Part shown: one piece after another, positions 53,417 through 64,000 of the stretch
How positions within the stretch are numbered: position 1 is the first letter of the stretch
Layout: every line of letters starts with the position of its first letter
Assembly (NCBI GenBank): GCA_023252195.1
Contig: JAHEXI010000003.1
Coordinates: 310,001 to 374,000 of the forward strand
Direction of reading: 5' to 3'
Length of the DNA: 64,000 bases
Source of the DNA: Pseudonocardiales bacterium
Lineage (GTDB): Bacteria; Actinomycetota; Actinomycetes; Mycobacteriales; Pseudonocardiaceae
Notes under the pieces: generated by a model
The model's input: the letters and a program-made list of their open reading frames with translations, nothing else
The model's database searches: none
Told to the model about the DNA's origin: nothing
Made by a program: the position numbers and the translations under genes

Positions 53417-53539
53417 TGTTGTGATCGACTCGCAGATCACCCTGTTCGCTATTCCTGCCGGGCATTACAGTTCGGGACGAGTCTCTTCCTACTCACACGG
53501 CTCCGCTCCAGCTACGTTGCCGAGGAGGCGTGGCCGCCA

Positions 53540-56410
53540 ATGCGCACGGAGTTGGTTGGTCGCGAACGGGAGCTGGCCGCGCTCGCGGAGCACTTCGAGT
53601 CGGCTCTCGCCGCACATCCGCGCGTCGTGCTGTGCCGGGGTGAGCCGGGGATCGGCAAGACCCGGATGGCCGAGGAGGTGACCGGGCTGGCGGTGATCCG
53701 GGACGTTCCGGTGGCGTGGGGGCCGGCGGCGGAGTCGAGCGGCGCGCCCCCGTACTGGCCGTGGCGGCAGGTGCTGCGCGTTGTGTCCGCCAGTGTCGAC
53801 GTCGTCAAGATCGCCGATGAGCTCGGGGTGCTGCCCGACCTGGTGCGGTTGGCACCCGAGGTGTTCGGTGCTCCGGGCGGTGATCGGAGTGGCAGCGGCT
53901 CGAGCGAGGACCGGTTTCGGCTGTTCGACGCGGTGGCCCGGCTGCTGAGCGATATCACCGCGAGCGGACCCTGGGTCGTCGTGTTCGACGACGCGCACCG
54001 CGCGGACTTCGGCTCATTGCTGCTGCTGCACCACGTGGTGCGCACGCTGACCCGCGAGCGGCTACTGGTGATGGTGAACTACCGGGATACCGAACCCGTG
54101 CACGATGTCCTCGTCACGGGACTCGCTCGAGAGCCGGTCACTCGTCGGATCGACCTCCGCGGCTTGGCCGCTCCGGCCGTCGGTAAGCAGCTCGCCGTGC
54201 TAGTCGGGCGCGCCGTCGTACCGGCGCAGGTCGAGCGGGTGCACGCGGTCACGGGCGGCAACCCGTTCTTCGTCGGTGAGATGGGCTGGGCGTTGGCCGA
54301 CGCAGGTCCTGCCGCGTCAGCGGTGAAGGTCCCGCCGAGCGTGCTGCAGACGATCAACGAACGGCTGGAACGGCTCCCACCGAAGTCCGTGTGGCTGCTC
54401 CGCGCGGCGTCGATCGTCGGCCGAGAGTTCTCCGTCGAGGTACTTGCCCGGATGGTAGGCGAGCCCGTGCTCGGCTGCCTGGGCCAGCTCGACGAGGCAG
54501 CGGCCGCCCGCCTGGTCGAGTCCACCGCGACGCCCGGCGAGCACCGATTCGTGCACGTCTTGATTCGGGACGCGATCGAGGCCGGCTTGGGCGCCGCCGA
54601 GCGGGTACAGCTGCACCGGTCGGCGGCCGAGGCCGTGGAGGAGATGTACGCCGGCCATCTCGAGCCGCGTCTGTCGGATCTCGCCCGGCATTGGGCGGCG
54701 GCTGCGGTACTCGGCGAGCGGGGCCGCGCTACCGGTTGGATCCGGCGGGCCGCGAGCGAGGCGGTGAGCCGGCTCTCCTACGAGGAGGGCGTCCGGCTTT
54801 ACCGGCTCGCACTCGACGTCGGCGGCCGTGAGCTCGACGATCTCGACCGCTGCCAACTGCTGCTCGCGCTCGGCGCCGCGCAGAGCCTGACCGGGGATCA
54901 CCCGGGTCGGCTGCACACCTGCCGGAGTGCGGCCGACCTCGCGCGTTCGATGGCGCGACCCGACCTCATCGCCGAGGCAGCCCTGATCTTGGAGGGGGGC
55001 GACGGCGCCGAGGCCGATTGGCTGGTCAGGCGGCTGTGTGAGGAGGTCCTGCGGGAGCTGGATCCGAAGTCCTGCTCGCTGCGTGCCAGGGTCGCGGCCG
55101 GGCTGGCCCGCGCGTGCATATACCTCGATGACATCGACGCCGCCGCGCGGGCCAGCGAGCAGGCACTGGCCGCGGCGAACCAGTGCGACGATCGGGGCGC
55201 AGTAGTGGCGACGTTAAGAGCCCGCCAGCTCGTGCGCTCCGATCCGGACGGGATCGATGAACGGTCCGACCTGGCCGCGAAGCTGCTCGAAATCGGCCGG
55301 GAGACCTCGGACCCCGAGACCCAGATGTGGGCCCACCTCTGGCGGATCGACGTGATGTTGCAGCGCGGCGACCTCGGCGGCGTCGGCCGGGAGCTCGATC
55401 CGCTGGCCCGGTGCGTCAACGAGATGGGCGGGCCGGTCGCGCGCTGGCACCTGCTCCGCTGCCGGGCAGCACACGCCCAGGCGCAGGCACGCTTCGCTGA
55501 CGCCATCCGGCTAGCCAACGAGGGCTTCACCGAGCTGATCCCGCTCTCGACGTGGGTCCGGGACGGCGTGTTGGCGATGACGGGCCACCACATCGGTCCC
55601 GAGGCGAGCGGTGGGACGAGGGCCTACGGCCTCGATGGACGTGTCGGTGCTCGAGACTTCTGCCCGGCCTTCGGCGTCATCTACTCGCTTGCGCCGGCTG
55701 TTGTGCTGATCTCAGCCGGTCGGCGCGGCGAGGCGGCCGAGCTCTACCGAGCGCTGGGGCCGGTCGCCCAGTGGCAGCCGACCACCCACGGGGCAACCAT
55801 CAGCTTCGCGCTCGGCATCGTGGTCGCCGCGGCGATGGACGCTGCCGAGGATGTCGCGGCGCTACGCGGGCTGCTGGCCCGTTACCGCGGCCACCATGTC
55901 GCGGGCGGTGCGGGCCCCGCGATCTACCTCGGGCCGGTTGAGCTCTACCTGGGCATCGCGGCCCGGTACCTGGGACTGTTCGATGACGCCATCGCCGAAC
56001 TCGACCACGCACGGCAGGTGTGCGCGGCGAACGGGGCGGCCGGTTACCACGTCGAGGCGCTGTTCGAACTGGCCGTGGCGCTGGGCTGCCGGACCGGGCA
56101 CGGTGATGCGGCACGGGCCCGTTCGTTGGCCACCGACTGCGCCGGTCGAGCCAAGACCCTCGGCATGGCGCCATTCGCGACGCGCGCCCAGGAGCTGGCC
56201 GACCGGCTCGGTCAGGCGCCGGCCGAGGCATTGACGCCGAGGGAGCGCGAGGTCGCCGCGCTGGTGGCGCAGGGGCGGACCAACCGGGAAATCGCCGCCC
56301 GGCTCTACCTCTCCGAGCGCACCGCGCAGAACCACGTGCAGCACATCCTCACCAAGCTCGACCTGTCGAACCGCAGCCAGATCGCGGTCTGGATCACCAG
56401 CCGCAGGTAA
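53540..56410 (+). CDS. Large LuxR-type ATP-binding regulator (LAL family)
   Basis: 956 residues from ATG 53540 (GAGGAGG upstream). The N-terminal AAA/AAA_16 ATPase has P-loop CRGEPGIGKTRMAEE near residue 36 and Walker B VVVFDDAHRADF. A helical middle follows, and a LuxR helix-turn-helix ends the protein (LTPREREVAALVAQGRTNREIAARLYLSERTAQNHVQHILTKL). LAL proteins (MalT-like) activate catabolic or biosynthetic genes. It diverges from the cyclase-STAND gene. A damaged copy of its last 38 codons is found at 58605. Confidence 0.92.
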   Translation: MRTELVGRERELAALAEHFESALAAHPRVVLCRGEPGIGKTRMAEEVTGLAVIRDVPVAWGPAAESSGAPPYWPWRQVLRVVSASVDVVKIADELGVLPDLVRLAPEVFGAPGGDRSGSGSSEDRFRLFDAVARLLSDITASGPWVVVFDDAHRADFGSLLLLHHVVRTLTRERLLVMVNYRDTEPVHDVLVTGLAREPVTRRIDLRGLAAPAVGKQLAVLVGRAVVPAQVERVHAVTGGNPFFVGEMGWALADAGPAASAVKVPPSVLQTINERLERLPPKSVWLLRAASIVGREFSVEVLARMVGEPVLGCLGQLDEAAAARLVESTATPGEHRFVHVLIRDAIEAGLGAAERVQLHRSAAEAVEEMYAGHLEPRLSDLARHWAAAAVLGERGRATGWIRRAASEAVSRLSYEEGVRLYRLALDVGGRELDDLDRCQLLLALGAAQSLTGDHPGRLHTCRSAADLARSMARPDLIAEAALILEGGDGAEADWLVRRLCEEVLRELDPKSCSLRARVAAGLARACIYLDDIDAAARASEQALAAANQCDDRGAVVATLRARQLVRSDPDGIDERSDLAAKLLEIGRETSDPETQMWAHLWRIDVMLQRGDLGGVGRELDPLARCVNEMGGPVARWHLLRCRAAHAQAQARFADAIRLANEGFTELIPLSTWVRDGVLAMTGHHIGPEASGGTRAYGLDGRVGARDFCPAFGVIYSLAPAVVLISAGRRGEAAELYRALGPVAQWQPTTHGATISFALGIVVAAAMDAAEDVAALRGLLARYRGHHVAGGAGPAIYLGPVELYLGIAARYLGLFDDAIAELDHARQVCAANGAAGYHVEALFELAVALGCRTGHGDAARARSLATDCAGRAKTLGMAPFATRAQELADRLGQAPAEALTPREREVAALVAQGRTNREIAARLYLSERTAQNHVQHILTKLDLSNRSQIAVWITSRR

Positions 56411-56458
56411 GTGTGCAGGCCCGTTTTCGCTGTGCGGACCGCCCACAGGCGAAGCGGG

Positions 56459-56632
56459 ATGAGCTACTGGTTCAAGCAGGATGAGATCCACGCGCACACG
56501 CACGTGCACGGCTGCCCGGCATTCCTACCGTGGCACCGGGAACTGATCAATCGGTTCGAGGAGCTGATCCAGGAAATCGCTTCGCAAGGCGGCTCGGTGC
56601 AGCCGCCATCACCATTTGTTTTGAGGAGGTAA
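56459..56632 (+). pseudogene. Tyrosinase fragment
   Basis: From ATG 56459 the sequence MSYWFKQDEIHAHTHVHGCPAFLPWHRELINRFEELIQE matches the CuA region of tyrosinases, including the metal-ligand-type histidines in THVHG and the block FLPWHRE. After 40 residues the similarity ends and a stop follows at 56630-56632. The CuB site is absent, so no active enzyme can be made. Confidence 0.7.
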
Positions 56633-56646
56633 CCAGACAACCAGAC

Positions 56647-56913
56647 GTGTACGTCACCGCTATTCATCAGATCACCGATCCGGAGAAGTTTCGGCAGGGG
56701 GTGCGGGCGGCCACCCCTCCAGCGAGCGAGTTCCCGGCCGGCATCGTCCTGCACAGCATGTTCTCGAATCCCGATGACACCAAGGCCGTCTGCCTTTGGG
56801 AGGCGGAGACCGTGGACGCGGTGCGGGATCTCGTCGCCTCGGTAGTCGGCCAGTTTAGCCAAAACGAGTACTTCGAGGTGAACAAGGAGACCGCACTCGG
56901 CCTGCCGGACTGA
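56647..56913 (+). CDS. Small alpha/beta-barrel-like protein, unknown function
   Basis: 88 residues from GTG 56647 (VYVTAIHQITDPEKF). A GAGGAGG lies about 18 bases upstream, rather far, so the exact start is uncertain. The alternation of strands and helices (YVTAIHQI, GIVLHSMFS, AVCLWEAETVDAVRDLVASVVG) resembles dimeric ferredoxin-like monooxygenase/SCO4226-type folds. I cannot assign a function. It follows the tyrosinase remnant and precedes the DUF1326/DUF2182 pair on the same strand. Confidence 0.6.
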   Translation: MYVTAIHQITDPEKFRQGVRAATPPASEFPAGIVLHSMFSNPDDTKAVCLWEAETVDAVRDLVASVVGQFSQNEYFEVNKETALGLPD

Positions 56914-57047
56914 TCGCCAGACGCCTTCGGCCCTGCGATCGGGCGGGATTCCTCGGCTGGCCGGGCAGTTGGGCCGGCCGGTGGCTTGACCGTGCTTCAT
57001 CAGCAGGACGAGACTTCTGGTTCTCCGGGTTGAGAGGGGGCCGTCCC

Positions 57048-57650
57048 ATGGCCTGGTCCATCCGCGGTCGCTATTTTGAAAACTGTTCCTGCGATATGCC
57101 CTGCCCGTGCACAGTCACGTTTGACGCCGGCGCCGACACGGAGCGCTGCAATGCCGTGCTCATCTTCCATGTTGACACCGGTGAGGTCGACGACGTGGAC
57201 GTGAGCGACCGGACGGTCGTGGTGGTGGTAGACGCTCCTCAAGTGATGACCGACGGCAACTGGAAGCTCGCGCTCGTGGTGGACGAGAGGGCCTCCGACG
57301 AGCAGCTCCAGAAACTGGGCGCGGTGTTCGGCGGCGAGCTGGGGGGTCCGATGGAGGCACTCGCCCCGCTGGTGGGCGAGATGCTCGGCGTGGAACGAAT
57401 GCGCATCGAGGTCACCGAGAGCAACGGGAACCACAAGCTGAGCGCCGGTGACGCACTCGAGGTCGAGGTCGATGACGTCGTGCCGTTCGGTGTGGACACC
57501 GGCCGCCCCGCCCGGCTCGTCGATGTCTTTCACCCGGCCAACAGCGAGCTGACCGTGGCGAAGGGCCGCTCCCGGGTCGGAGTCCTCGGACTGGAATGGT
57601 CCCAAGCAGGCACTTCGGGGTTTTCCGCCCCCTTCGCCTGGACGGGATGA
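57048..57650 (+). CDS. DUF1326 protein
   Basis: 200 residues from ATG 57048 with GAGAGGGGG upstream. The N-terminal YFENCSCDMPCPCT cysteine cluster is the DUF1326 hallmark and suggests metal binding. Other conserved parts are NWKLALVVDERASDEQLQKLGAVFGG and the C-terminal GLEWSQAGTSGFSAPFAW. The gene touches the following DUF2182 gene (TGA then ATG without gap). The pair occurs together in many genomes and probably forms a metal-handling unit, function not established. Confidence 0.9.
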   Translation: MAWSIRGRYFENCSCDMPCPCTVTFDAGADTERCNAVLIFHVDTGEVDDVDVSDRTVVVVVDAPQVMTDGNWKLALVVDERASDEQLQKLGAVFGGELGGPMEALAPLVGEMLGVERMRIEVTESNGNHKLSAGDALEVEVDDVVPFGVDTGRPARLVDVFHPANSELTVAKGRSRVGVLGLEWSQAGTSGFSAPFAWTG

Positions 57651-58466
57651 ATGACAAGGGTCGGCGTCCCAGTCAGGCCCGGCCCGCTGCTGACGATCGG
57701 TCCGCTGCTGGCCCTCGCCGTCGTCTGCTGGGCTGTGGTGGTGCAGCGGATGGGAGGCGAAGACGGGGGTCCGGGTGCGGATCCGGGCCCGCTCGGCTTC
57801 TTCACCGGTATGTGGACGCTGATGATGGCAGCGATGATGCTCCCGTCGGTGTGGCCCACGGTGCTCGTGTACCAGCGGCTGCAGGCCGCGCGGCGCGAAC
57901 GCGGGAAGAACGCTGTGCGGATGGGACCGGCCTTGCTCCTGGTCGGCTACCTGGCAGCGTGGACCATCGTTGGGCTCATCGGCTTCGCTATCCTCAAGGC
58001 TGGCCGAGCCCTTGAGATCGACGCCTTGAGCTGGAGCCGGGGCGGACCGCTGCTAGCGGGCGGAGTGATCATCGCGGCGGCGGCCTACCAGCTCACGCCG
58101 CTCAAGGACGTGTGCTTGCGGCACTGCCGTGGCCCGTTCAGCTTCCTGTTCGAGCACTGGCGTCCAGGCGCGCTGGGCGCGGTTCGGCTGGGCGCCCGCC
58201 ACGGCATCTGGTGCATCGGCTGTTGCTGGGCACTGATGACCGCGCTGTTCGCCCTCGGTGTCATGAGCATCGCGTGGACGGCACTGATCGCCGTCTTCAT
58301 CGCCGCTGAGAAGCTGCTGCCCTGGCGCCGAGCCGCCACCACGTTCGTGAGCCTCGCGCTGCTGGTGCTCGGCCTTGCCGTGGCCCTGGTTCCCGAGCGG
58401 GTGCCAGGGCTGATGATAGCCGACGCCCCGATGCACAAGATGAGCATGCCCCGCATTCCCTCGTGA
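57651..58466 (+). CDS. DUF2182 integral membrane protein
   Basis: 271 residues from ATG 57651, immediately after the DUF1326 stop. About seven hydrophobic helices are seen. The DUF2182 signature WTLMMAAMMLPSVWPTVL lies in helix 2, and YQLTPLKDVCLRHCRGPFSFL plus GIWCIGCCWALMTALFALGVM carry conserved cysteines; the end is Met/His-rich (MHKMSMP). The family is described as predicted metal-binding. Coupling with DUF1326 suggests copper or a related metal as ligand, which is inference. Confidence 0.9.
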   Translation: MTRVGVPVRPGPLLTIGPLLALAVVCWAVVVQRMGGEDGGPGADPGPLGFFTGMWTLMMAAMMLPSVWPTVLVYQRLQAARRERGKNAVRMGPALLLVGYLAAWTIVGLIGFAILKAGRALEIDALSWSRGGPLLAGGVIIAAAAYQLTPLKDVCLRHCRGPFSFLFEHWRPGALGAVRLGARHGIWCIGCCWALMTALFALGVMSIAWTALIAVFIAAEKLLPWRRAATTFVSLALLVLGLAVALVPERVPGLMIADAPMHKMSMPRIPS

Positions 58467-58604
58467 TCCTTTCCCGACACCATTCCCGCATTCCCGGTGC
58501 CCACACGAGACAACACGAGGTGCATGAATCTGGACCACCTGTGCTGGCGGCCTGCCTCGCAGACATCAGGCGCAGCACTCGACGTCGACATCTCCTCGCG
58601 GACG

Positions 58605-58719
58605 ACCAACCGGGAGATCGCCGCCCGGCTCTACCTCTCCGAGCGCACCGCGCAGAACCACGCGCAGTACATCCTCACCAAGCTCGACCTGTCGAACCGG
58701 GGCCAGATCCCGGTCTGAG
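58605..58719 (+). pseudogene. Duplicated end of the LuxR-type regulator gene
   Basis: This 115-bp segment matches 56280-56393 in the LAL gene with only about seven differences. It encodes TNREIAARLYLSERTAQNHAQYILTKLDLSNRGQIPV followed by a stop. There is no ATPase region in front. It is a partial duplicate, cut at its right end where a repeated 61-bp element begins. Confidence 0.8.
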
Positions 58720-58777
58720 TTGAGTATGCGGGCTGAGTAATTCGGCGGACGCCGCCACGGCGCCCCCTCACTACCGT
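58717..58777 (+). repeat. 61-bp repeated element, copy 1
   Basis: Starts GAGTTGAGTATGCGG and ends CTCACTACCGT. It matches 60501-60561 with the same orientation, strongly at both ends and more weakly in the GC-rich middle. It begins exactly where the LuxR duplicate ends, and the promoter region of the FAD oxidase follows. Confidence 0.65.
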
Positions 58778-58822
58778 ATTTCAGGTATACGGAAGCGACG
58801 GGAAACCGGAATGTTCGGTTCC
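58774..58822 (+). promoter_or_regulatory. Two dyads upstream of the FAD-linked oxidase
   Basis: CCGTAT-N7-ATACGG (58774-58792) is a perfect dyad, and GGAAACCG...CGGTTCC (58801-58822) is a nearly perfect one. They lie 24-72 bp before the ATG at 58846, in promoter range. Which regulator uses them is unknown. Confidence 0.5.
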
Positions 58823-58845
58823 GTGCGGGGAGGAGAGTGGTTTTT

Positions 58846-60246
58846 ATGACAGCGACGGTAGGCGAGGGTATTGAAGCTCTCCGCGCAGTGATGTCGGGTC
58901 CTGTGTTTATTCCGGCTGACGCCGACTATGAGAGCGCTCGTTTGATCTGGAACGGCGACATCGACCGTCATCCCGCGGTCATCGCGCGATACCAGACGCA
59001 GCAGGACGTGGTCACGGCAGTCGGGTTTGCGCAGCGCGAGGGAATGGAGATCGCGGTCCGCGGTGGTGGGCACGGGATCAGCGGGTCGGCCGTTTGCGAG
59101 GGCGGCCTGATGATCGACCTGAGCGGAATGCGGAACGTGATGGTAGATCCCGAGCGCAGGCGGGCCGTCGTCGGTGGCGGGGCGAGTCTAGCCGAGCTGG
59201 ACGCCGCCACCCAGGCGCACGGCCTTGCCGTCACCGGTGGGGTCGTCAGCCACACCGGCGTCGCCGGGCTCACCCTTGGCGGAGGCATGGGCTGGCTGAC
59301 CCGCAAGCTGGGTCTCAGTATCGACAACCTCGAAGCGGTCGAGGTGGTGCTGGCCGATGGCCGGTGTGTGCGGGCCTACGCCGACTCGCATCCGGACCTG
59401 TTCTGGGCAATGCGCGGGGGCGGCGGCAACTTCGGAATCGTCACCTCGTTCGAATTTCGGCTGCACCCGGTCGGCCCGGAGATTCACCTCGCCCTGCTGT
59501 TCTGGGGCCTCGACCAGGGGCACGACGCGCTGCGGACCGCCCGTGACGGCATACCGGCGCTGCCCGAGGACATCTACCCGCTGCTCTGCGTCGCGTTGAA
59601 CGCACCGCCCGCCCCATTCGTCCCGGAACAGCACCATTTCGCACCTGGGTACGCGCTCCTGCTGGTCGGGTTTGGCTCGGCCGACGAACACGCTCAAGCC
59701 GTGGCACCGATCCGTGCCGCCTGCCCGCCGTTGTTCGAGTTCATCACCCCGATCCCCTATACGGCGCTTCAGCAGCTGTTCGATGACAATCCTTTCCCGT
59801 GGGGAATCCGGGCCTACGAGAAAGCGCTTTATCTCGACGAACTCTCCGACGAGGCGATCAACGTGCTGGTCGAGCGAGCCACCGACAGAACCTCACCAAT
59901 GTCGTTCATGCCGATCTTCCGGCTCGACGCCGCCTTCGCGCGGGTCGGCGAGCAGGACACCGCTTTCGGCGGAACGCGCACCCCGCAGTACGCCGTGAAC
60001 ATCATCGCCATCAGCCCGGACGCAGCTGCGTTGGCGGCCGATCGCAAGTGGGTGCGATCGGTGTGGGACGCCCTGCGCCCGCTCGCTGCCAGTGCTAGCG
60101 GTTACGTCAACTTCGACGCAGAACACGACGACGACCGCGTCCGAGCCACCTACGGGTCAACGAAATACGACCGATTGGCCCAGATCAAGGCCCAGTACGA
60201 CCCAGGCAACGTCTTTCACCGCAACGCAAACATCTCGCCGGCCTAA
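58846..60246 (+). CDS. FAD-linked oxidase (PCMH fold with BBE domain)
   Basis: 466 residues from ATG 58846, 11 bases after GGGGAGGAG; GTG 58837 is too close. FAD_binding_4 motifs are clear: IAVRGGGHGISGSAVCEGGLMIDLSGM, with the histidine used for covalent FAD attachment in this family, and GGVVSHTGVAGLTLGGGMGWLTRKLGLSIDNL. The C-terminus is the BBE segment (YGSTKYDRLAQIKAQYDPGNVFHRNANI). Relatives oxidise sugars, alkaloids or polyketides. A damaged copy of the His-loop region lies at 61217. Confidence 0.92.
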   Translation: MTATVGEGIEALRAVMSGPVFIPADADYESARLIWNGDIDRHPAVIARYQTQQDVVTAVGFAQREGMEIAVRGGGHGISGSAVCEGGLMIDLSGMRNVMVDPERRRAVVGGGASLAELDAATQAHGLAVTGGVVSHTGVAGLTLGGGMGWLTRKLGLSIDNLEAVEVVLADGRCVRAYADSHPDLFWAMRGGGGNFGIVTSFEFRLHPVGPEIHLALLFWGLDQGHDALRTARDGIPALPEDIYPLLCVALNAPPAPFVPEQHHFAPGYALLLVGFGSADEHAQAVAPIRAACPPLFEFITPIPYTALQQLFDDNPFPWGIRAYEKALYLDELSDEAINVLVERATDRTSPMSFMPIFRLDAAFARVGEQDTAFGGTRTPQYAVNIIAISPDAAALAADRKWVRSVWDALRPLAASASGYVNFDAEHDDDRVRATYGSTKYDRLAQIKAQYDPGNVFHRNANISPA

Positions 60247-60362
60247 CCCGCCAGACAGAGCCGTCACACGCCACTGGTTGAGTCAAGCGCTACACCAGCA
60301 CACAACATACCAACTAGGTGCGGGGAATCGTGTTCGAAATGGTCGATGACGGAGGAGCCACC

Positions 60363-60497
60363 ATGGAGAAAGCAACGGGTGTGATTCGTATCGAGCACCT
60401 AGAAGACTTTTCCAAAGTATTTCAGGAGACGTATAATACCGGTGACCTGGACGGACTGATCAGTCTCTTCGAGCCCGAGAGCCTCTGGCCTCGCCAG
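60363..60497 (+). pseudogene. SnoaL/DUF4440 N-terminal fragment
   Basis: ATG 60363, after CGGAGGAG, reads VIRIEHLEDFSKVFQETYNTGDLDGLISLFEPES, the first helices of an NTF2-fold protein similar to the broken gene at 34892-35303. Similarity stops at about 60485, and the 61-bp repeated element begins at 60501. The remaining two thirds of the domain are missing. Confidence 0.65.
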
Positions 60498-60500
60498 TCG

Positions 60501-60561
60501 CAGTTGAGTATGCGGCTGAGTAGTTCGGCGGTTGCCGCTCCAGCGCGCGTCTCACTACCGT
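60501..60561 (+). repeat. 61-bp repeated element, copy 2
   Basis: Begins CAGTTGAGTATGCGG and ends CTCACTACCGT. It matches the element at 58717-58777. As with copy 1, it starts where a truncated gene (here the SnoaL fragment) breaks off. Confidence 0.65.
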
Positions 60562-60619
60562 TCAAGACCAATGATTCAGGTGGCCTGAAGGCGGCTCGGC
60601 GCCGCCGCGGAGGTTTCCG

Positions 60620-60859
60620 ATGCTTGACATACAGATTGCAGTCTCGCAGACAGTCGACCAGTATGCTCCTCAGCGGATGGCCGCAGCCGCCGCCGCGAAG
60701 GCCAAGCGGTTGTGGCCGGGAATAATCGGCGAAGTGCTCGCCGACGAGATCATGGCGGTGCTGGATCTGCCGTCGTGGATGCAATCGCAGACCCGTACGA
60801 TGCGGCTTATCGGCGCGATTTCGAACATTACGGAGGAGGTAGGAGCATCCTGGGATTAG
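60620..60859 (+). CDS. Small hypothetical protein
   Basis: 79 residues from ATG 60620, six bases after CGGAGG. It is Ala-rich and probably helical (AVSQTVDQYAPQRMAAAAAAKAKRLW, then IGEVLADEIMAVLDLPSW). It resembles nothing I know. Support is the good ribosome site and plausible composition only. The surroundings are full of gene fragments, so it may also be a chance frame. Confidence 0.35.
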   Translation: MLDIQIAVSQTVDQYAPQRMAAAAAAKAKRLWPGIIGEVLADEIMAVLDLPSWMQSQTRTMRLIGAISNITEEVGASWD

Positions 60860-61017
60860 TCCGCCGCCCATCGACCGGGCAAGCATGCCGTGAAACTCGG
60901 CTCGGGCATCGCCGTCCAGGTCGTCGAGGATCCAGCGGAAGATCCGGTCCAGCGGACCGTAAGTAAAGTAATGGTCACCGAGTCGCCCTACGGGCTGGGC
61001 CCAGTAGAGTGCGCTTG
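60850..61017 (-). pseudogene. Unassigned coding-like fragment
   Basis: The minus strand reads ALYWAQPVGRLGDHYFTYGP, then LDRIFRWILDDLDGDARAEFHGMLARSMGGG, which has the composition of a real protein. There is no start codon (an in-frame stop precedes it) and downstream the frame loses coding character. It is probably the remnant of a larger gene that I do not recognise. Confidence 0.35.
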
Positions 61018-61216
61018 AGCTTCACCTCCTGGCGCCCCACGGTCAGATGTATCCCCTACTTCCTTTGCCGGTCATACGCGTCGACTAAGCTAAAATTCAG
61101 CTGGATTGGAGTCGGTAGGCAGTCGTGACTCGAGCGACTCGGCAGTCCGGAGGGCGGCAGTGTTAGCCCCAGCTCCTGCACGCGATACCACGCTCGCAAA
61201 GCAGACCAGAGATTAC

Positions 61217-61296
61217 GGTCCGCGGTGGTGGGAACGGGATGAGGGGACCGGCCGTTTGCGAGGGCGGCCTGATGATCGACCAGAGCGGGATGCGGG
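61217..61296 (+). pseudogene. Remnant copy of the FAD-linked oxidase gene
   Basis: This 80-bp stretch matches 59054-59133 (the covalent-FAD histidine loop of the oxidase) at roughly 90 percent identity, with small indels. For example CCGTTTGCGAGGGCGGCC and CTGATGATCGACC occur in both. No flanking oxidase sequence is present. Confidence 0.75.
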
Positions 61297-61390
61297 CGTT
61301 GTGGTGTCGCTAGCGGTACGTATCGCCCGATTCGAGACTACAGTCATCGCTGCGCCAACCCACGCTGACCGACGTATCAAGGGGGTTGAC

Positions 61391-62263
61391 ATGGTCGCGA
61401 GCGTATCGGCAGCTCAGTGGCAGCAGAGTCAGGATGCACTCCGCGATGAGGTTCGGCGGGTGACGACCCTGATGCGGTCCATCAGTGATCCGGGGGTTCC
61501 CGCGGTGGGCCAGTGGAACATCGCTGAGGTTGCCATGCATCTTTCGCAGAACTGGATGCTGGTACCTGGGATGGCACGGCAAGACCTCTCCCGATATAAG
61601 GCAGTGGTGCCCGGCATTGTTGGGTTGGCCGGCGACTCGATGATCCCGGACATGTGGGACAACGCTGACATGAACGCGCTCGGGTTGAAGTGCGACGCCG
61701 AGCGCGATCTGGCTGTTCTGGCCGACCGCATCGAGGAGCGGGCGGAGGAGTACCTCGGCGAGTGCGCGGGGCACTCGCCCGATGAGCCGCGCCCGTGGAC
61801 GGTCGAAGGCACCTCGGTGCCCCTGTCGGCCTTGACCTGCAACTTGCTGAACGAAACGCTCACGCACGGTTACGACATCGCGAAGGCCGCCGGACGCAAG
61901 TGGAGGATCGAGCCGGCACATGCGGCCATGGTGGTGCGGCAGTTCTTCGTCCCGGTGATGCAAACGTGCGATCCTCGGACGTTTGTCAACGCTGGGAAGG
62001 CGGCTGGCCTCCAGGCCACCTACCAGGTGCATCTGCGGGGATGCGGTCGGATCGTTTTTGTTTTCGACGATGGGTCGCTCAGGGTCGACGAGCCGTCCGT
62101 CCGCCGGGTCGACTGCCATATCCTGGCCGATCCCGCAGCGTTTTTCATGGTGTTCTGGCAGCGCCAGAGCCAGTGGAATGCGATCGCCAAGGGTCAGCTC
62201 ATAGCCTGGGGTCGCAAGCCGTGGCTGGGGTTGAAGTTCAGGTCCCTAATACGCAATCCCTGA
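61391..62263 (+). CDS. Mycothiol-dependent maleylpyruvate isomerase-like (DinB/MDMPI) protein
   Basis: 290 residues from ATG 61391 with AAGGGGG upstream; the longer open frame runs over the oxidase remnant. The MDMPI/DinB N-terminal four-helix domain is visible (LRDEVRRVTTLMRSI, PAVGQWNIAEVAMHLSQNW with a metal-type histidine, and LNETLTHGYDIAKAAGRKW with another). The last 110 residues (TYQVHLRGCGRIVFVFDDGSLRV, DCHILADPAAFFMVFWQRQSQW) are an SCP2-like domain. Relatives use mycothiol as cofactor. The substrate is unknown. Confidence 0.85.
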   Translation: MVASVSAAQWQQSQDALRDEVRRVTTLMRSISDPGVPAVGQWNIAEVAMHLSQNWMLVPGMARQDLSRYKAVVPGIVGLAGDSMIPDMWDNADMNALGLKCDAERDLAVLADRIEERAEEYLGECAGHSPDEPRPWTVEGTSVPLSALTCNLLNETLTHGYDIAKAAGRKWRIEPAHAAMVVRQFFVPVMQTCDPRTFVNAGKAAGLQATYQVHLRGCGRIVFVFDDGSLRVDEPSVRRVDCHILADPAAFFMVFWQRQSQWNAIAKGQLIAWGRKPWLGLKFRSLIRNP

Positions 62264-62652
62264 CAGGCCTTATGAGAAACCGTGAGCACCAGCGGGTGCA
62301 GCGCGCCAAGCAGGTGGTGACGCAGCGCGTGCACCAGCAGGATGGTCATCGCGGTGCTGACCGAGGCGGCGGCCAGCACCGCTGCCAGCGCTCGTCCACG
62401 GGAGCTGATCGCCGCCTCAGCGAGGTGCTGAAGGCGGACCGTGTCCTCAGGCCGCATAGCGGGGACGCGCTGTCGCGGCGACCTTGTCACGGAAGTAGCG
62501 ACGACATAGATCTGGTCACCCACTTCGAATCCAAGGCGGCCCTCGATGCAGCCGCGATCCCTGATTCTCGCCGCGCTCGCTGGTGACGTGGCCGAGTTGA
62601 CCACCGAGACAAACCCTTAGTCCCGCACATTTTGCCAAGGGTCGGTGTCGAG
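62264..62652. other. Region without a clear gene
   Basis: About 390 bp. A minus-strand frame (62194-62604) contains MRPEDTVRLQHLAEAA, recalling HepT/DUF86 starts, followed by a hydrophobic stretch (AVLAAASVSTAMTILLV). The parts do not form a coherent protein, and the frame overlaps the end of the DinB gene. It is probably degraded sequence. Confidence 0.35.
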
Positions 62653-62868
62653 CTATTCTGGGAGCTGGCGAGCGTCTGGTTCGGTCTCCTGCCATCCGCG
62701 TAACCTGTTGATCGCACCCATCAGATCGATCCAACCATGGAAGGGCTGCGCCCCGGTTCCTTCAGCGGGAGCGATAGTGCCGCGGGGGGGCTCGGTGCCA
62801 CCCAAGCGCAGACTCAACAGAAAGCTACCCGTGCTCGGGGACTCGGTCCCGGGTTCGTCGCCGGCCAT
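62653..62868 (-). CDS. Small hypothetical actinobacterial protein
   Basis: 71 residues from ATG 62868 with GAGGTGAT upstream. The core FLLSLRLGGTEPPRGTIAPAE, then PFHGWIDLMGAINRLRG, has the pattern of a common small actinobacterial protein of about 60-80 residues with unknown function. It lies alone between degraded stretches. Confidence 0.55.
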   Translation of the reverse strand: MAGDEPGTESPSTGSFLLSLRLGGTEPPRGTIAPAEGTGAQPFHGWIDLMGAINRLRGWQETEPDARQLPE

Positions 62869-63138
62869 ATCACCTCAGATCTGGTAGTGGCTGTTCCCTG
62901 AAACTGTCGCTGTCATCCAGTAAGATATCGAGACGGCTGGCGTCGCGGTTCTCTCCGAGCCTGCAATGCCCATGATCACTCCTGCGCTTGGGCTGGCGCG
63001 ACAATGCTAAGACGGCTGCGGTAGCGGTTGCCTCCGGAATAACCCTAAGCGTTAGCTAAGCACACTGGTGGTCCTTCGCTTCGACAGGCTCGGCACGGGT
63101 CTGTCGTCCTGTCTGCCGCACTCCGAAGGGAGCCGCTC
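62869..63138. other. Intergenic region before the esterase fragment
   Basis: About 270 bp with no open frame of interest. CTAAGCGTTAGCTAAG near 63044-63060 is a small palindromic stretch. No other feature is seen. Confidence 0.4.
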
Positions 63139-63540
63139 ATGACCGACATCGGTCCTGAGGTACGGACAGCTAGTGGCACGGTGCGCGGACGGCGAGCGGA
63201 CGGGCTCGTGGTCTTTCGGGGCATTCCATTCGCGCAGCCGCCGGTCGGTGCGCTGCGGTTCGCCGCTCCGCAGCCGCCTCGGCCCTGGGATGGGGTACGG
63301 GACGCGGTTGAGTTCGGCCCGGCACCGCCGCAGTCCGGACCGCTCCGCTCAGCCGGGACCGCCGGTACGGAGTGGCTGACCGTCAACGTCTGGTCCCCGG
63401 ATTTGGGTACTGCCCGGTTGCCGGTGCTGGTGTGGATCTATGGCGGGGCCTACATGTCCGGGTCCTCCGGTGACCCGGTGTATGACGCGGGGTTGATCGC
63501 CCGTCAGGGTCTGGTCGTGGTGAGTTTCAACAGCGAGCCC
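63139..63540 (+). pseudogene. Type B carboxylesterase, N-terminal fragment
   Basis: ATG 63139 (GAAGGGAG upstream) begins a standard esterase/para-nitrobenzyl esterase N-terminus: VRTASGTVRGRRADGLVVFRGIPFAQPPVGALRF, LTVNVWSPD, LPVLVWIYGGAYMSGSSGDPVYDAGL. It reaches LVVVSFN near 63530, where the family normally continues with YRVG. There the sequence joins the end of a LuxR-type gene read on the other strand. The catalytic serine region is gone. Confidence 0.8.
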
Positions 63541-64000
63541 GTGGGCGTGGAAGACCAGGGCGGCGACATCGGCGGGCGGGGCGCGCTGGATGGTGACCCC
63601 GACGGTGCCCGGCGGGACGGTCATCCCAGTGAGGTGGGACGCGTGGATGGTCAGCCAGTGGCCGGCGGCGTGCGGGTCCGCACTCTGGCGGCAGCCGGCG
63701 CAGCGGTGGGGGTTGCGCCGGAAGGTCCGGTCAGGGAACGCAAACGGGCGGCCACCGAAAGGACCGGCGTAGGGGCGGGAAAGAGCGCCTCGGCGGGGAT
63801 GGCGTATGAACGGAGCAGGGCCAGCCACTGGTCCGCCTCCGCGGTGGTGGCTTGGATTGCATTGTGGGCGTCGAGGATCAGGATGCCGGGGCCGGGCGGC
63901 ACATCGGTCGTCGGTGCGCTGACGCAGGTCAGCGCGGCCCGCAGGGCTTTGGCCATGGGCACAGCTAGCCGGAGCAGGAACTCGGCTTCCTCGGTGGTGA
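63541..64000 (-). pseudogene. LuxR-type regulator fragment, truncated and frameshifted
   Basis: From the right edge the minus strand reads TEEAEFLLRLAVPMAKALRAALTCVSA, then GPGILILDAHNAIQATTAEADQWLALLR, typical of GAF/PAS-containing LuxR-family regulators. Near 63670 the frame changes and continues GHWLTIHASHLTG and PPADVAALVFHAHGL, just before the LuxR DNA-binding domain would start. There it fuses to the esterase fragment. The DNA-binding domain is missing and the N-terminus lies beyond the window. Confidence 0.7.

Follow-up and report, generated by a model that had tools for sequence, protein, structure and literature searches.

A probable operator-promoter of LAL regulators, copied with the end of the regulator gene, in a Pseudonocardiales genome

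INTRODUCTION

MalT, with the MalT boxes of the Escherichia coli maltose regulon, is the prototype of the large LuxR-family (LAL) regulators. Many actinobacterial gene clusters contain LAL regulators, and the DNA recognised by several of those studied is not yet settled. Here, we analysed a repeated element of about 61 bp in a 64,000-nucleotide stretch (the window) of a Pseudonocardiales bacterium genome (GenBank assembly GCA_023252195.1, contig JAHEXI010000003.1, positions 310,001 to 374,000). The element stands twice in a gene cluster headed by a LAL regulator gene, and it is very probably a cis-regulatory operator-promoter of a clade of such regulators, copied together with the end of the regulator gene.

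Several described systems come close to this arrangement. According to passages of two papers, MalT is a LAL regulator, with an ATPase part and a GerE part, and has direct-repeat sites in its target promoters (PMC6099782, PMC9628970). The TpdR-dependent promoter P-TTMP of Rhodococcus jostii TMP1, likewise under a LAL regulator, is described as having a pair of direct repeats located close to −35 and upstream of it (PMC6099782). In Streptomyces coelicolor, the LAL-class repressor SCO6993 has footprinted sites in the portion of the report consulted (PMC9628970), and PimR-like SARP-LAL regulators are described with heptameric direct repeats upstream of −35 in actinobacterial promoters (PMC5930380). 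RevU of Streptomyces sp. SN-593 belongs to the LuxR family, has an ATP-binding N terminus, shares the domain layout of the regulator studied here, and is reported in the consulted part of its description to bind the cluster promoters as well as its own (PMC7311520). In a passage of a review on geldanamycin control, the sequences bound by three regulators, two of them LAL, are said to be still to be elucidated (PMC6784220).

RESULTS

An earlier note, made from the letters of the window, had placed one 61-bp sequence at the break points of two truncated genes. Both copies were confirmed in the same orientation, copy 1 at 58718-58777 and copy 2 at 60501-60561 (+ strand). In BLAST searches, the two matched at 83% along 59 nt (E 3.2e-9) when copy 1 was the query and at 84% along 60 nt (E 6.6e-10) when copy 2 was; in a pairwise alignment, 50 of 60 columns were identical. 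The 80-nt flanks were unrelated, with 436 and 396 of 500 shuffles scoring equally high. The repeat itself stood but its proposed extent did not, as homology continues beyond 61 bp up to a TTCAGGTG block, and some copies have 11-12 gap columns.

Two similar copies at truncated gene ends might point to a small non-autonomous mobile element, such as a miniature inverted-repeat transposable element (MITE) or a repetitive extragenic palindrome (REP), that was inserted twice and broke two genes, as the earlier note had considered. Against this, no further strong match to copy 1 was found in the 4.74-Mb assembly of the window's genome (G000; 48 contigs, 97.8% complete), where the remaining 15 matches had E values of 0.86 or worse, and a search of G000 with a model of nine copies found no third strong copy. 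At neither copy was there a perfect terminal inverted repeat of at least 4 nt or a flanking duplication of at least 3 nt. Among 11 genomes of the genus, the model gave strong copies in four and none in the remaining seven; the same four have a close LAL gene, and since the model was built from them, its nine source copies match by construction. With all eight distant copies described below also adjoining LAL genes, a mobile element is highly improbable.

The anatomy of the element is that of a promoter with an operator: next to the gene of a regulator with ATPase and GerE parts stand direct half-sites at a fixed spacing upstream of a −10-like hexamer. Two direct TGAGTA half-sites 12-13 bp apart are accompanied by NTTCGGCGG and by a TANNNT hexamer 32-33 nt past the second half-site. 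Copy 1 has its half-sites at 58721-58726 and 58734-58739 and the hexamer TACCGT at 58772-58777; copy 2 has them at 60505-60510 and 60517-60522, with TACCGT at 60556-60561. A first scan, which allowed spacings of 10-13 bp, yielded 21 distinct exact repeats, and every one of them was spaced at 12 or 13. As 13 bounded that range, all sequence examined was rescanned at spacings of 5-45 bp; 22 pairs were obtained, 7 at 12, 14 at 13, and one at 18. TANNNT occupied offset 32 or 33 past the second half-site in 14 of the 21 distinct repeats, with three occurrences at all other offsets below 100. If the hexamer is placed at −12 to −7, the half-sites would lie near −63 and −50 and NTTCGGCGG would cover the −35 region. 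Half-sites near −63 and −50, just upstream of −35, would hold the place of a class II activator.

Several copies also contain a GGCGG-N3-CCGCC palindrome, and the LuxR gene might accordingly end in a transcription terminator, an attenuator, or a structured RNA. No terminator-like site was found in 58400-60900, however, and no Rfam match reached the gathering score in 56000-62000. Only 1 of 12 predicted pairs had a change on both sides, the covariation term was unfavourable, and the palindrome was missing, by eye, from several distant copies. An RNA element is given very little credence.

Outside the genus, a sample of 397 order genomes was screened for the strict pattern TGAGTA-N(5-8)-GAGTANTNCGGCGG, and one of 394 class genomes for its N(6-8) form; the two samples overlap, and their genomes are not all distinct. 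The order search gave 5 matches in 4 genomes, two of them the window's and three outside it (G016, G130, G453). The class search gave 7 matches in 6 genomes, again with the window's two and with five outside (G573, G826, G614, G624, G833). The reversed pattern gave no match in the 397 order genomes or the 394 class genomes. All eight outside matches adjoin a LAL gene. Seven of them lie at its 3′ end (G016, G130, G573, G826, G614, G624, G833), and that of G453 stands before a lipoprotein gene, behind which the LAL gene follows at about 1 kb from the element. The repeat starts between −53 and +19 from the end of the LAL stop codon (+132 in G813), in differing frames; in some genomes it lies inside the LAL reading frame, in others 15-19 nt past the stop. 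Since position and frame relative to the stop vary, what is conserved is the DNA and not the protein sequence. Altogether, the element adjoins predicted LAL genes in several families and genera; in many cases it lies at the LAL stop codon or spans it, before the neighbouring gene.

The nine-copy model was also run on 200 genomes of the family and gave mostly weak matches (21 loci shown, six inspected for open reading frames [ORFs]). The weak matches were taken for chance, and the match in G013 was a real copy at a LAL gene end. A match in G141 (L132) resembles half an operator, with a gene apparently of a LuxR regulator on one side and one for a small secreted protein on the other.

Loci were also fetched by LAL protein similarity. 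Nine exact direct repeats were present in 7 of these 26 loci (144,561 nt); none occurred in 60 dinucleotide shuffles of the LAL loci, in 47 loci of flavin adenine dinucleotide (FAD)-dependent oxidases (143,499 nt), or in 42 chance loci from the model searches (122,844 nt). Four of the loci with a repeat (G108, G131, G050, G057) were new. In a second set, 5 of 18 LAL loci carried an exact repeat; the pattern search had already given four of these, which leaves G813 as the only one to add weight. G131 (L148 4573-4643) and G050 (L153 4595-4664) each have a divergent back-to-back pair of repeats about 0.3 kb upstream of a LAL gene with a recognition helix of the TAENHVQ type, which suggests self-regulation together with control of the divergent gene. 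One repeat stands upstream of the LAL match in G057, at a distance of about 0.6 kb.

The presence of a copy followed the recognition helix when 32 LAL ends were sorted. Where the helix read TAQNHVQ or TVGNHVQ, a copy was found in the cluster in 14 of 14 cases, nine of them at the LAL end; G005 is scored here by homology, its second half-site being altered (TGCGCA), and the G006 LAL end, whose helix begins SARTAQNHVQ, is not among the 32. The other counts were 4 of 6 for TAENHVQ, 0 of 2 for TAQTHVQ, and 0 of 10 for all other types. The element might still be a promoter run by another regulator or by a special sigma factor, with LAL as a mere neighbour or fellow target, because only linkage and helix type tie it to LAL and the rigid −10 spacing would suit any promoter. 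This alternative is unlikely: the LAL linkage holds across several families despite different downstream genes, the element agrees with the LAL recognition helix, and direct repeats suit a MalT-like protein. The genes behind the copies indeed vary, including an ORF of 79 amino acids (aa), a DUF1326 gene, a lipoprotein gene, and small genes without a Pfam family. The earlier note had held that its readings would be refuted if the element were found only as the normal upstream region of FAD-oxidase genes. The element is absent from the 260 nt upstream of each of 19 other FAD oxidases of the genus, and a general FAD-oxidase promoter was rejected. Binding of the repeat by the LAL protein, with activation of transcription, is the most likely arrangement.

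Within the genus, nine copies from four genomes were aligned. They precede the FAD oxidase (G000, G006, and G008 contig C243), the 79-aa ORF (G000 and G008 C212), and the DUF1326 gene, where they may be altered (G005, G006, and G008 C212); the last copy occupies a third place in G008 C243. Several copies away from the LAL end are exact repeats. At the LAL end itself, the full-length gene of G006 finishes with ...ACTCGCAATTGAGTGTGCGGGTTGAGCAATTCGGCGG, and the first half-site contains the LAL stop codon (half-sites TGAGTG and TGAGCA); the "element" is therefore the junction between that gene and the promoter that follows. At the LAL end of G008 C212, CGCAGTTGAGCAAGGGTTTGAGCAATTTTGGCGG, two altered half-sites, TGAGCA and TGAGCA, stand 12 bp apart, and the stop codon is again spanned. 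The junctions of G005 and G008 C243 retain only AGTTGAGTATGCGGG, followed by unrelated sequence; they read AGTTGAGTATGCGGG(G/C)TCG at the same place as window positions 56407-56423 (+ strand), where a decayed first operator half (GTAAGTGTGCAGGCCCG) lies directly 3′ of the LAL stop codon. The window junction is the more decayed. The two G008 contigs, C212 and C243 (L016, L017), belong to one metagenome-assembled genome and both have LAL pieces, DUF1326, and PpoB2, with differing gene losses; they represent either two paralogous clusters or mixed strains.

The copying history can be read from the sequence in front of each operator. The duplicate of a LuxR gene that had been noticed before copy 1 is real: 58604-58717 (+ strand), joined to copy 1, matches the 3′ end of the LAL gene (56278-56391) at 95% identity across 114 nt. 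The suggestion of a copied promoter from a lost gene was also nearly right as regards the promoter, which appears to be a promoter-operator with a LAL 3′ tail, but the gene is not lost, because a full LAL copy stands 2.3 kb upstream. For a test of such tails, the 60 nt before each copy were aligned to the LAL 3′ end and compared with 1000 shuffles. None of the 1000 shuffles equalled the tails before the FAD-oxidase operators of G000 (score 44.5), G006, and G008 or the tail before copy 2 of G008 C212. These tails argue that the putative operator was copied jointly with the regulator 3′ end, at least for the FAD oxidase and, judging by its G008 orthologue, for the 79-aa ORF too. The tail of copy 2 in the window may have been trimmed later.

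Between LAL and DUF1326, G006 has a single operator, and in G005 a tyrosinase relic stands between a half operator and a fuller one. This comparison suggests that recombination between operators deleted intervening genes. It also leaves a secondary sense in which the recombination hot spot proposed earlier holds, as the one G006 operator seems to join the LAL and DUF1326 sides, with the tyrosinase gone. A dedicated hot spot or a site-specific recombination target would fit this difference and the position of the copies at break points. Such a function is nevertheless very unlikely, since no recombinase family was found among nine surrounding proteins scanned, the conserved parts are those of a promoter with a −10, and ordinary homologous recombination between repeats accounts for the deletions. 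With the operator-promoter as the preferred reading, a bolder idea may be put forward tentatively, as one that is somewhat more doubtful than probable: the target operator of the LAL clade would lie within the 3′ coding end of the regulator gene itself or extend across it, so that partial duplication of the tail plants a ready operator before another gene. If true, this would be a built-in route for regulon growth, and each new target would be marked by an adjoining scrap of the regulator coding sequence.

The cluster runs in the order LAL regulator, tyrosinase relic, small ORF, DUF1326, PpoB2, LAL tail, copy 1, FAD oxidase, remnant, copy 2, and 79-aa ORF; the LAL, DUF1326, PpoB2, and FAD-oxidase genes, the tyrosinase relic, the remnant, and the 79-aa ORF are all on the + strand. 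The full-length LAL gene (53540-56410; 956 aa) encodes an AAA_16 ATPase (Pfam, 2.4e-22) and a C-terminal LuxR/GerE helix-turn-helix (6.7e-17), and has relatives at 80-90% in G005, G006, and G008. It is followed by a 73-aa tyrosinase relic (56411-56629; Pfam Tyrosinase, positions 4-50 of 214, E 1.4e-6), the DUF1326 gene (57048-57650; Pfam 4.6e-51), and a gene of the PpoB2 copper chaperone family (57651-58466; Pfam PpoB2, 7.2e-61). No BLASTP alignment was obtained between the small gene behind f32-family LAL genes and the window ORF 56530-56910, and a literature search found no paper on DUF1326 together with DUF2182.

Behind copy 1 lies the FAD-dependent oxidase (58846-60246; Pfam FAD_binding_4, 1.5e-28, and BBE, 1.1e-10), whose G006 orthologue is 86% alike and has its own operator copy. 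Between PpoB2 and the FAD oxidase, G006 (L018 9400-10400) and G008 C243 (L017 750-1400) have two small ORFs. Going by their resemblance, they are a possible HicA/HicB toxin-antitoxin pair. The stretch had no BLASTN match in window 53500-64000. Before copy 2, the remnant at 60363-60490 had been called a SnoaL fragment; it has no Pfam match at E 0.01, nor has the ORF 60318-60722, and the name was not confirmed. G006 has a remnant of like sequence at the equivalent position.

Copy 2 has an equivalent in G008 C212 that is 93% alike. The 79-aa ORF behind it (60620-60859) is kept in G008 and G006; it has no Pfam or NCBIfam match and is possibly a small real gene. Farther downstream stands a second FAD-oxidase relic, 61209-61295, which matches 59047-59133 at 90% across 87 nt. 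It precedes a gene whose product has mycothiol-maleylpyruvate-isomerase N-terminal and SCP2 domains, and G006 has the relic in the corresponding position. At 63140-63570, an apparent carboxylesterase start, read by eye, ends after about 140 codons, possibly another truncated gene near the window end.

DISCUSSION

Three sequence-level observations carry the assignment of the element to the LAL regulators, namely, linkage to predicted LAL genes, agreement with the predicted recognition helix, and promoter geometry. The ATPase part of the LAL protein would be switched on by a signal; the protein would then bind the two half-sites (near −63 and −50), recruit RNA polymerase, and activate transcription as MalT does. 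Copying of the regulator 3′ end with the operator would bring new genes under LAL control, and recombination between operator copies would delete the genes between them.

A number of observations weigh against this assignment. A 19-base scan of genome contigs touched four contigs, three apparently of the genus and one of Sulfuritalea; the Sulfuritalea repeat has no LAL evidence and, missing its −10, was judged chance rather than an operator. The pair spaced at 18 bp sits in a chance locus of G007 (L114), and the chance-locus control had been reduced from 45 to 42 by dropping L117, L128, and L146 as true copies. Six LAL-linked repeats have NANNNT, not TANNNT, at offset 32/33. The exact repeat is missing from 19 of the 26 LAL loci and from 13 of the 18 in the second set, and the pattern and protein tests overlap, with G016 and G130 in both and G013 first seen via the model. 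The helix groups were drawn after the repeats had been seen, and related LAL proteins share both; LAL kinship may explain part of the helix-operator agreement. None of the five genus clusters seen keeps an intact operator directly after its LAL gene, the operator there being decayed, halved, or altered, and only five of the nine aligned copies are exact repeats, four being altered. No significant LAL tail was detected before copy 2 of the window (173/1000 shuffles), the third G008 C243 copy (81/1000), or the DUF1326 copies of G005 (846/1000) and G008 C212 (729/1000).

Among the literature matches listed, no title or abstract opening described a TGAGTA-type LAL operator, and in the parts of PMC12016544 and PMC4676930 that were consulted, TGAGTA occurs only in primers. 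The comparative genomics presented here yields a concrete predicted operator whose half-sites, spacing, and −10 are defined and to which a type of recognition helix corresponds, so that targets of this LAL clade become predictable and testable. Broken gene ends sharing a repeat, as in the window, can be explained as probable traces of operator copying.

Compared with the described systems, the predicted operator has its own character. RevU was tested on lux-box-like sequences, and in the consulted part of the paper its authors leave the binding sequence to future study (PMC7311520). The SCO6993 sites are described as short palindromes without a shared consensus (PMC9628970). The SARP-LAL regulators differ from the LAL protein of the window in domain content, as the latter has no SARP-type domain at E 0.01 (Pfam). 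The TpdR repeats are given as 15 nt long, at −79 to −65 and −51 to −37 and 13 nt apart (PMC6099782), a comparison of layout and not of sequence.

The actinobacterial half-site differs from MalT boxes in being TGAGTA; it is paired at a rigid distance of 12-13 bp, and NTTCGGCGG is conserved along with the pair. Against NCBIfam MalT, the LAL protein of the window gives a match in its GerE part only, far below the cut-off (22.6 bits against 537), and both window copies are without the MalT-box core GGA[T/G]GA, for which reason a MalT box proper was rejected. The core does occur in a half-site of 9 of the 21 distinct repeats, one of them the Sulfuritalea repeat, and in 8 of the 20 LAL-linked repeats. 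The relation of the putative operator to the MalT boxes is one of resemblance rather than membership.
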